Shown here piece after piece: positions 35,814-38,322 of a stretch of DNA of 58,057 nt. The translations under genes were made by a program, and so were the position numbers. A model generated the notes under the pieces. The model saw only the letters and a program-made list of their open reading frames with translations, was not told the DNA's origin and made no database searches. Source of the stretch: Burkholderiales bacterium (GTDB taxonomy: Bacteria; Pseudomonadota; Gammaproteobacteria; Burkholderiales; SG8-39); NCBI GenBank assembly GCA_014860445.1, contig JACZJT010000047.1, positions 1 to 58,057 of the forward strand, in the 5' to 3' direction. How positions within the stretch are numbered: the stretch's first letter is position 1; every line of letters begins with the position of its first letter.

Positions 35814-37349
35814 CTATAGCTGCGGGTTGATGCGCTCGACCTTGCTGTGCAGCTTGTTTAGCGCGGAGAGATAGGCCATGGCCGACGCCACGACAATATC
35901 GGTATCCGCGCCCACGCCGTTGACGATGCGCCCGGCCCTTTGCAGCCTGACAGTCACCTCGCCCTGAGACTCGGTGCCCTGCGTGACGGCATTGACCGAG
36001 TACAGCATCAGCTCAGAACCGCTTTTTGCAACGCTCTCGATCGCCTTGAAGATGGCGTCCACCGGTCCATCGCCCTGGGACTCCGCCCTGCGCTCGACGT
36101 CGCCCTCTACCAGCACGATGTTCGCGTGCGGGCGCTCACCCGTGCCGCTCGCCTGGTTCATGTCGATCAGTTTCCAGTGTTCGCTCTGCGTCGCAACCGC
36201 CTCGCCCGACAGCAAGGCGTGAATATCCTCGTCGAATATTTCGTGTTTTTTGTCGGCCAGATCCTTGAAGCGAACGAAGGCAGCGTTGATCGCCTGGTCC
36301 GATTCGAGCCCGATCCCCAATTCCTTCAATCGCGCCTTGAACGCGGTACGGCCAGAATGCTTGCCCAGCACCAGCTTGTTCGCGTTCCAGCCCACGTCTT
36401 CGGCGCGCATGATTTCGTAGGTTTCGCGGCTTTTGAGCACGCCGTCCTGGTGAATGCCGGCTTCGTGCGCAAACGCATTGGCGCCGACAATGGCCTTGTT
36501 GGGTTGTACCGGAAACCCGGTGATGCTGGATACCAGCTTGGACGCCGGCACGATCTGGGTCGCATCGATACGCGTATCGCAGGAGAAGAAGTCGCGGCGC
36601 GTGCGCACCGCCATGACGACCTCCTCTAGCGAGCTGTTGCCTGCGCGCTCGCCCAGCCCGTTGATGGTGCACTCCACCTGACGCGCCCCGTTCATCACCG
36701 CGGCGAGCGAATTCGCGACCGCGAGGCCGAGATCATTGTGGCAATGCACGGACCAAACCGCCTTGTCCGCGTTGGGAATGCGCTCGCGCAATGTGCGGAT
36801 CAGGCCGCCGAACTGCTCGGGCAGGGTGTAGCCCACCGTGTCCGGGATATTGACCGTCTTCGCGCCTTCCTTGATCACTGCTTCAAGCACACGGCAGAGG
36901 AAATCGACGTCCGAACGCCCCGCATCCTCGGGAGAGAATTCAACGTCGTCGGTGAATCTGCGCGCAAAGCGCACCGCGTTGACCGCGTCGGCCAGCACCT
37001 GATCCGGGGTCATGCGCAACTTCTTTTCCATATGAATCGGCGAAGTTGCGATGAAAGTATGGATGCGCCCCGATTTGGCCGGCTTGATCGCCTCCGCCGC
37101 GCGGCTGATATCCTTGTCGTTGGAACGCGAAAGTCCGCAGACCGTGCTGTCCTTGATAATTTCCGCCACCGCACGTACTGCTTCGAAGTCGCCGTTTGAA
37201 GCGGCAGGAAAGCCCGCCTCGATCACATCCACGCGCATTTTCTCCAGCAGACGGGCGATGCGCAGTTTTTCTTCCTTGGTCATGGAGGCGCCGGGGCTCT
37301 GTTCGCCGTCGCGCATGGTGGTGTCGAAAATGATCAAGTGGTCTTTCAT
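35814..37349 (-). CDS. leuA: 2-isopropylmalate synthase
   Basis: A 511-residue enzyme committing 2-oxoisovalerate and acetyl-CoA to leucine synthesis. The HMGL-like barrel has [12 protein letters not shown] and the metal-site motif [16 protein letters not shown]; the C-terminal regulatory domain (about 390-511), which binds leucine for feedback inhibition, includes [29 protein letters not shown]. The start at 37349 has GGAGG six bases upstream. It is preceded by two hairpins and a leucine-rich leader ORF, so attenuation by leucine is likely. leuB, leuC and leuD are not in the window. Confidence 0.97.
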
Positions 37350-37362
37350 CTTAGCCTCCGGT

Positions 37363-37417
37363 AAAAAATACAATCTTGGATTGCAAAAATCCTGTCCCGC
37401 ACCGGGGATGGTGCAGG
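37363..37417 (-). terminator. Putative leuA attenuator: two tandem hairpins with T-runs
   Basis: Reading the minus strand: hairpin A pairs CCTGCACC with GGTGCGGG (37396-37417, one G-U pair) and is followed six bases on by five T. Hairpin B pairs TGCAATC with GATTGTA around CAA (37369-37385, one G-U pair) and runs straight into six T (37363-37368). Both lie between the leucine-rich leader ORF and the leuA ribosome site. No antiterminator pairing could be established by eye. Confidence 0.55.
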
Positions 37418-37446
37418 GTTCAAACTAACCGAATTGTGGGGTGGGG

Positions 37447-37536
37447 TTATGTGCGCGCGGGGCGCAGCAGCAGGCCGACCAGCAACAGCAGGCTGCTAAG
37501 TAAAGCGGCGATCAGGACTGTGGTATTGAACACCAT
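37447..37536 (-). CDS. leuL: Putative leucine leader peptide (attenuation control of leuA)
   Basis: A 29-codon ORF, MVFNTTVLIAALLSS then four Leu, Val-Gly, three Leu, RPART. Ten of 29 codons are Leu, three Val and one Ile, in runs of four and three. The rare codons TTA and CTT are adjacent (codons 12-13), unusual in this GC-rich DNA. It sits 97 bases before leuA, followed by hairpins with T-runs. A TTGCCT-17-TATATT promoter ends six bases before the ATG and no ribosome site is seen, so translation would be leaderless, as reported for trpL of Sinorhizobium. Alternative: a small hydrophobic membrane protein. The symbol is assigned by analogy. Confidence 0.6.
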   Translation of the reverse strand: MVFNTTVLIAALLSSLLLLVGLLLRPART

Positions 37537-37542
37537 GGTCGC

Positions 37543-37571
37543 AATATATCGGCTTTCCTGAATTTAGGCAA
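37543..37571 (-). promoter_or_regulatory. Promoter for leuL-leuA
   Basis: Minus-strand TTGCCT (37566-37571, over the end of pssA) and TATATT (37543-37548), spacer 17. The predicted start falls on or next to the A of the leader ATG at 37536. Confidence 0.6.
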
Positions 37572-38322
37572 CTGACCGCTTTTTGCGCCAATTCCATGCC
37601 CACATGGCGTATCCCGACAGGGAATATGCGACGAACAGCAGGAAGAGCACCGTCGGCGGATGGGTGGAAATGAGGATCATCGCGAGCGCTACCAGCAAAA
37701 TCGCCCAAAACGGCACGGCGCGGCGGAAGTTGATGTCCTTGAAACTGTAAAACGGAACGTTGCTCACCATGGTCAATCCGGCGAACAAAGTGATGATGCA
37801 GGAAAGCCAGCGCATCGTGCTCACCGCGTCGATATGGAAATCGTCCACCACCCAGATGAAGCCGGCCACCAACGCGGCAGCCGCAGGACTCGGCAAACCC
37901 TGGAAATAGCGCTTGTCCACCACTTCGATATTGGTATTGAAGCGCGCAAGCCGCAGCGCCGCACCTGCACAGTAGACAAACGCGGCGATCCAGCCGATGC
38001 GGCCCATGCTTTTGAGCGCCCATTCGTACATCACCAGCGCCGGCGCCGCGCCGAAGGACACCATGTCCGAGAGGCTGTCGTACTCGGCGCCGAACTCGCT
38101 CTGCGTATGGGTCAGCCGGGCGACCCGCCCGTCAAGGCCGTCCAACACCATGGCGATGAATATCGCCACCGCCGCCTGTTCGAAGCGCGCATTCATCGCC
38201 TGCACGATAGCGTAGAACCCCGCGAACAGGGCCGCGGTGGTAAACAGATTGGGTAATAGGTAGATGCCGCGGCGGCGTATCTCCGCATTGATCAGCGGCT
38301 TTCTCCGTTTGTAGACAGGCAT
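37564..38322 (-). CDS. pssA: CDP-diacylglycerol-serine O-phosphatidyltransferase
   Basis: A 252-residue membrane enzyme that makes phosphatidylserine from CDP-diacylglycerol and serine. The CDP-alcohol phosphotransferase signature is complete: DGLDGRVARLTHTQSEFGAEYDSLSD (D-x2-DG-x2-AR-x8-G-x3-D-x3-D). About six to eight hydrophobic segments follow MPVYKRRKPLINAEIRRRGIYLLPNLFT. It starts nine bases after psd, whose enzyme uses its product. It belongs to the PssA type II membrane family rather than the E. coli peripheral type. Confidence 0.95.
   Translation of the reverse strand: MPVYKRRKPLINAEIRRRGIYLLPNLFTTAALFAGFYAIVQAMNARFEQAAVAIFIAMVLDGLDGRVARLTHTQSEFGAEYDSLSDMVSFGAAPALVMYEWALKSMGRIGWIAAFVYCAGAALRLARFNTNIEVVDKRYFQGLPSPAAAALVAGFIWVVDDFHIDAVSTMRWLSCIITLFAGLTMVSNVPFYSFKDINFRRAVPFWAILLVALAMILISTHPPTVLFLLFVAYSLSGYAMWAWNWRKKRSVA

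Follow-up and report, generated by a model that had tools for sequence, protein, structure and literature searches.

Leucine leader peptides that act together with intrinsic attenuators are established, according to the available portions of two reports (PMC6123439, PMC2659441). An actinobacterial LEU element, in which a leader with a run of Leu codons lies ahead of leuA, is described in the accessible part of a third (PMC1262725), which also names a Rho-dependent leader-peptide attenuator in the tna operon. For trpL of S. meliloti (PMC7298713) and ilvL of C. glutamicum (PMC11857589), the accessible text places the start of the transcript at, or one nucleotide from, the start codon of the leader, and in the betaproteobacterium B. 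cenocepacia leaderless transcripts have been mapped that are directly preceded by a TA-rich box, as stated in the part available of that study (PMC4603805). Neither leaderless leader peptides nor leucine attenuation is new in itself; the leader family described here was not found in Rfam or in the literature searched. A search of Rfam 15 with window positions 37000-37900 returned three matches at E values of 10 or less, each scoring far under the gathering cut-off and none to a leader family, and 20 loci of the family gave no match at gathering. No description of a betaproteobacterial leuA leader peptide was found in the literature searched, in which subscription papers are thinly covered and an earlier report is possible, and the accessible part of a survey of premature terminators (PMC2965389) names no leu leader.

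The window analysed here is a contig of 58,057 nucleotides from a Burkholderiales bacterium. The features on which the analysis depends lie on its minus strand and are given below in the direction of transcription.

37564-38322, minus strand: pssA (TIGR00473), the upstream neighbour of the leader
37566..37571, minus strand: -35 hexamer TTGCCT, from the promoter scan, overlapping the 3' end of pssA
37543..37548, minus strand: -10 hexamer TATATT, separated from the leader ATG by 6 nt; transcription would be expected to start at or beside the A of that ATG
37447..37536, minus strand: leader open reading frame (leuL-like) of 29 codons, product MVFNTTVLIAALLSSLLLLVGLLLRPART
37468..37498, minus strand: P0, a hairpin within the reading frame whose 3' arm reaches the Leu triplet; the weakest of the three hairpins
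37465..37473, minus strand: Leu-Leu-Leu codons (CTG CTG CTG), immediately 5' of P1
37452..37466, minus strand: P1, hairpin UGCGC-CCCGC-GCGCA, which runs from within the last Leu codon to just short of the stop
37432..37446, minus strand: C-rich, G-free tract after the stop, predicted to be single-stranded
37419..37436, minus strand: conserved linear stretch CAATTCGG..AGTTTGAA, which in relatives reads CAATTCGG-n-AGTACC or TTGTTTGA
37396..37417, minus strand: P2, hairpin CCTGCACC-ATCCCC-GGTGCGGG, with no U-tract directly after it
37363..37383, minus strand: weak hairpin CAATC-CAA-GATTG followed by TATTTTTT, the T-run hairpin of the first-pass annotation, not kept across the genus
37355..37359, minus strand: GGAGG, the Shine-Dalgarno (SD) site of leuA
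35814..37349, minus strand: leuA, 2-isopropylmalate synthase (TIGR00973, NF002087)

The layout first reported for this locus is upheld in part. The 29-codon frame contains ten Leu codons, grouped as runs of four and three, and its stop lies 97 nt from the leuA ATG (37349), exactly as the first-pass annotation had read it. The promoter TTGCCT-17-TATATT, which had been placed six bases 5' of the leader ATG, was recovered as the sole promoter-like site in a scan of 37150-37700 (9 of 12 matches; 0.4 sites expected in shuffles), and the reported lack of a ribosome site is also correct, AGGA, GGAG, GAGG and AAGG all being absent upstream of the leader ATG in the window. The adjacent TTA and CTT codons had been described as rare, which is true of TTA (6 of the 290 Leu codons in ten window genes) and not of CTT (35 of 290); among ten congeners, the adjacent pair is present in the window only. 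The suggestion of a control for leuA separate from that of the ilv-psd-pssA genes agrees with the arrangement, since the leader supplies leuA with its own promoter downstream of them. No leader was seen by eye ahead of ilvB in the window.

The distribution of the leader was examined in leuA genes with their upstream DNA, gathered as 30 loci from a search of 60 relatives' genomes and as 80 named contigs, which left 97 loci after deduplication (the upstream DNA of one, L030, being just 34 nt long). A homologous leader is present in 58 of the 97, of which 52 were recognised by pattern, with L069 dropped, and six by eye (L040, L053, L086, L096, L098, L106). A covariance model, R1, was built on 43 of these 58 leaders and extends from the Leu triplet through the hairpin at the stop to roughly 30 nt beyond. 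It matches 147 of 399 Burkholderiales genomes, the genome of the window included, and 63 of 158 genera, about six in ten of the genomes searched being without a match; the matches number 149 in total, one per genome except in two genomes. The loci of 130 of these matches, the window's own among them, were fetched, and 129 have a LeuA homologue with the leader upstream on the same strand, the exception (L236) being a false match inside the coding region of another gene. In a class-wide search of 369 genomes, R1 matched 7 that lie outside the Burkholderiales. Five of these seven loci have a LeuA homologue (L242-L244, L246 and L247, the leaders of L244 and L246 having been read by eye as they fell below the score of the script), one (L241) has the same leader as L242 and no LeuA match, and one (L245) is a false match in other coding region. 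The leader was also recognised by eye in five of twelve further leuA upstream regions from twelve genomes (L248, L249, L252, L255 and L259, the last a duplicate of a genome already counted, G056), and the remaining seven showed no clear leader. An apparently leaderless, leucine-rich leader ahead of leuA, as first proposed for the window, is a feature conserved far beyond chance, and comparison of the relatives shows the Leu codons kept while the rest of the peptide drifts. The 178 unique leaders were thinned by similarity to 131 representatives, 20 of which precede type 2 leuA; limits of length and class left 110 of the 131 for the unpaired probabilities, 125 for the P2 hairpin, 122 for the comparisons with shuffles and 111 for the terminator count.

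Among the loci without a leader, a long upstream frame stops 15-17 nt 5' of leuA in L036, L071, L077, L082 and L091 and overlaps leuA in L051; leuA in these six loci may depend on the upstream operon, because the upstream frame is so close. Two Pandoraea loci (L096, which is included in the 58 leaders, and L097) retain a -10 box ahead of an ATG, together with a GCGCG hairpin at the stop, yet no adjoining Leu run, a layout that may represent decay or a different signal. Four metagenome bins titled Bordetella parapertussis or Klebsiella pneumoniae (L042, L062, L070, L085) carry a leuA whose product is 73-78% identical to the window protein, and their titles look doubtful.

The gene that follows the leader is not always an orthologue of the window leuA (type 1). 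A distant LeuA homologue (type 2), less than 45% identical to the window LeuA, is preceded by 24 of the 178 unique leaders, and the seven of those 24 genes that were scanned all score above the cut-off of TIGR00970 (leuA_yeast). Two genomes (G416, G308) possess two copies of the element each, one before a type 1 leuA and the other before a type 2 leuA, and at G047:C3:349468-353180 the element precedes a type 2 leuA, downstream of which lies a type 1 leuA in the same orientation. The presence of one element ahead of two non-orthologous enzymes suggests that it tracks the reaction catalysed and not a single lineage of genes, and nothing else speaks as strongly for leucine as the signal as its occurrence before both kinds of 2-isopropylmalate synthase.

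The sequence around the leader start resembles that of a leaderless message. None of the 58 leaders has an SD-like tetramer (AGGA, GGAG, GAGG or AAGG) before its ATG, as against 56 of 58 before leuA. In 53 of the 58 leaders 6-7 nt separate the end of the -10 from the ATG, and in five the distance is 8-9 nt (57 of 58 lying within 6-8 nt); the best -35 is found at a spacer of 17-18 in 52. In the larger set, a perfect TATATT or TATAGT lies 6-8 nt 5' of the ATG in 91 of 131 leaders as compared to 3 of 5913 other ATGs at the same loci, the latter figure bounding the bias towards a leaderless reading that comes from taking as start codon the in-frame ATG with the best -10 match. Hexamers with five or six of six matches precede 96 of the 131 leader ATGs and 63 of the 5913 others; by gene, they are found in 92 of the 111 leaders before type 1 leuA and in 4 of the 20 before type 2, so that the leaderless spacing is clear in the former and weak in the latter. 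This spacing points to a leader transcript that would begin at or beside the A of the ATG and to a ribosome that would load on a leaderless AUG.

Leucine makes up 26.9% of the residues of the 131 thinned leaders and 7.4% of those of LeuA. Near the end of the frame, a Leu codon abuts CGC or TGC in 126 of the 131, and a second Leu precedes it in 125 of these 126; the Leu codons in this position are mostly CTG, with TTG, CTA, CTC, CTT and TTA also in use, and one leader (L086) carries six consecutive Leu codons of four kinds. P1, a GCGC-loop-GCGC hairpin, is found in 127 of the 131 leaders (L086, L098, L106 and L195 give no GCGC-GCGC match), and in 118 of the 127 its first base coincides with the third position of the last Leu codon. 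Three leaders are without a Leu codon in reach, and seven have the stop 23-31 nt past the hairpin, in which the hairpin identified is probably the wrong one. The stop codon itself floats, from inside P1 to 12 bases beyond it apart from seven outliers, and on reading lies inside the P1 loop in L014, L086, L098, L235, L238, L243 and L246. P0, the hairpin within the frame, appears in the consensus fold of the genus and has no pair in which both sides have changed.

P1 is more stable than its shuffles (Stouffer -10.1 over 122 leaders, a value overstated by the relatedness of the leaders). At each of its four core pairs, between 97 and 100 of the 100 alignment rows have G-C or C-G; the rows include two chance second matches (L017, L019) and no row for L086 and L106, though both were searched; compensatory double changes number two (L195, L244). 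When the register was slid as a control, 96.7% of the countable cells still paired with the 3' side moved by -3, and a shift of +1 gave a covariation score of 0.037 as against 0.018 for the real register, while two outer pairs that were tried are formed in just 20 and 37 of the 100 rows. As the slid controls are not clean and the outer pairs are sparse, covariation alone is no proof of P1. Better evidence for the predicted hairpin is its stability together with the odd members that keep it although their peptide tail differs or their stop falls in its loop. A conserved arrest peptide was rejected, the tail after the Leu codons being variable (LLLRPART, LLLRASAN, LLLLLLP, LLLPCQGR, LLLLRR) while the hairpin stays. 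P1 as a pause hairpin of the his type was set aside, since, judged against the pause consensus, the 15 nt that follow contain hardly any G.

The 15 nt after the leader stop are 51% C and 3% G in the 131 leaders, as compared to 27% and 31% after 112 leuA stops, and positions +3 to +14 are free of G in 94 of the 131 leaders and in 3 of the 112 controls. The tract has a mean predicted unpaired probability of 0.77 (110 leaders), and its YC content is 10.8 per 40 nt as against 5.1 in the control. P2 follows, with a sequence that varies among leaders and a stability greater than that of shuffles (Stouffer -13.9 over 122 leaders, again overstated as the leaders are related); the mean of the best P2 hairpin is -14.5 kcal/mol, compared to -11.7 kcal/mol in shuffles (125 leaders), and two of its pairs show compensatory changes among ten congeners. 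In three AT-rich relatives (L207, L220, L229) a near-identical TAAAATTCG-n-CGARTTTTA stem is present as P2.

Classical attenuation requires an intrinsic terminator and a competing pairing. Applied to this leader, P2 or the T-run hairpin would be the terminator, and the leader end would serve as antiterminator when the ribosome stalls. The two hairpins with T-runs from which this reading arose do not bear it out: a terminator scan of 37150-37700 found none (0.6 expected), and P2, real and conserved as it is, yet has no T-run directly after it. The T5 of the window sits 6 nt past P2 and is absent in congeners, and at least five T in the 8 nt after P2 occur in only 9 of 125 leaders. The CAATC-GATTG hairpin before TATTTTTT, kept in L005, broken in L004, deleted in L007 and absent from the consensus fold of the ten congeners, was rejected as a terminator as it is not conserved in the genus. 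Intrinsic-terminator-like sites occur in 7 of 111 leaders and 42 of 1110 shuffles, with no clear enrichment. As for the competing pairing, the Leu-codon stretch has a weak excess of complementarity to P2 (mean z -0.39, Stouffer -4.3, 59% of 122 leaders below zero), and in the genus of the window a pairing between the P2 3' arm and leader CTGCGCC looks possible by eye. Complementarity of the P1 3' arm to P2, however, is no greater than in shuffles (Stouffer -1.0, 122 leaders), and the AT-rich P2 stems of L026, L207, L220 and L229 give GCGCGC no partner, as judged by eye. With the P1-P2 pairing at chance, a classical antiterminator was not accepted as the general model. Two loci, L094 and L106, do have a GC hairpin and then a long T-run, a U-tract terminator, before leuA, and in L106 the end of the reading frame can by eye pair with the 5' arm of the terminator; lineages may therefore differ, and intrinsic termination may be used there. 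The likely leader of L094 would open with a GTG six bases after TACATT. Of the attenuator first proposed, the conserved Leu leader is supported and the classical terminator and antiterminator as a general scheme are not, and intrinsic attenuation is rated as unlikely for the family. Translational attenuation, in which the leader structure would mask the ribosome site of leuA as suggested for the actinobacterial LEU element, is rated a little lower still. The Leu-codon stretch has a weak excess of complementarity to the leuA SD (mean z -0.40, Stouffer -4.4, 122 leaders) and the tract tends the same way (Stouffer -1.9), but self-folding of the SD region is slightly below that of shuffles (Stouffer +2.3), and SD sequestration found little support in these complementarity and self-folding tests.

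Were transcription to end ahead of leuA, the leader would amount to a small leaderless mRNA, and the peptide or the short leader RNA might act in trans, as the accessible part of the S. meliloti trpL report describes (PMC7298713). The drift of the peptide outside the Leu codons and the residues encoded by P1 speaks against this, as does the nature of what is conserved, namely a cis anatomy beside 2-isopropylmalate synthase genes, and action in trans is considered quite improbable. A promoter alone, with the reading frame present by chance, would account for the -10 as conserved DNA upstream of the frame; it is contradicted by the conservation of the Leu enrichment, of the Leu-Leu before P1, of the register between Leu codons and P1 and of the absence of an SD, and is hardly credible.

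The reading preferred here is a leader-peptide attenuator with leucine codons, of whatever termination type, for 2-isopropylmalate synthase, to which we assign a probability of roughly three in four, a share that overlaps with intrinsic attenuation. Sequence comparison establishes the reading frame, the Leu codons, the spacing between promoter and ATG, P1, the tract and P2; from these we infer leucine as the signal and termination as the off step. The anatomy fits a sensor of ribosome position, as P1 has to stay open while a ribosome occupies the Leu codons and can close after its passage. Transcription would begin at the A of the ATG or next to it, and the ribosome, loaded on the leaderless AUG, would have to translate two or more Leu codons, with P1 opening at the third base of the last. 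When charged tRNA-Leu is plentiful, the ribosome would clear these codons and depart, P1 would close, and the C-rich unstructured tract and P2 would end transcription before leuA, perhaps via Rho. When leucine is scarce, the ribosome would be held on the Leu codons, P0 and P1 would remain open and transcription would continue into leuA.

Rho-dependent terminators typically present a C-rich, G-poor, unpaired tract and then a hairpin. The resemblance of the tract and P2 to such a terminator, with a YC content twice that of the control, makes Rho the favoured agent of the off step, with odds close to even if the leader is an attenuator. Given the usual ribosome footprint, a ribosome stalled on the Leu codons leaves the C-rich tract exposed, and the Rho scheme consequently needs an extra step. 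The complete proposal, that is, a leaderless peptide read against a hairpin locked to the third base of the last Leu codon, a Rho-dependent off step without an intrinsic terminator, one element for both kinds of synthase and a widespread family with no description in the literature searched, is put forward tentatively, with the balance tilting somewhat against its being right in every part. In many betaproteobacteria the leader is probably a leucine sensor that works mostly without a textbook termination signal. If true, leucine attenuation would extend to a large part of the Burkholderiales, and conservation of leaderless initiation at a regulatory peptide over many families is suggested. The leader could also be used to study, in a natural setting, how termination is governed by a stalled ribosome without an intrinsic terminator, and the register between Leu codons and hairpin makes the question of ribosome position directly testable.

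Among known systems, the tna attenuator resembles this leader in having C-rich, G-poor, unpaired RNA right behind the leader stop. Its response depends on arrest of the nascent TnaC peptide; the peptide here, by contrast, has a variable tail and kept Leu codons. With the leuL-leuABCD arrangement of enterobacteria and Shewanella, as given in the accessible text (PMC6123439, PMC2659441), the leader shares a short reading frame with Leu codons before leuA and hairpins between the two; it differs in lacking a clear excess of intrinsic terminators and a general pairing of P1 with P2, and in having an apparently leaderless start and no Rfam match. The LEU element is described, in the available part of its report, as a pseudoknot with a base stem between Leu codons and the SD, whereas the present element has P1 at the Leu codons, the C-rich tract and P2 as its recurring parts. 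The leader is apparently leaderless, like trpL of S. meliloti and ilvL of C. glutamicum as presented in the accessible portions of those reports, although here this is judged from the spacing of the -10, and it differs from both in belonging to different operons and lineages.
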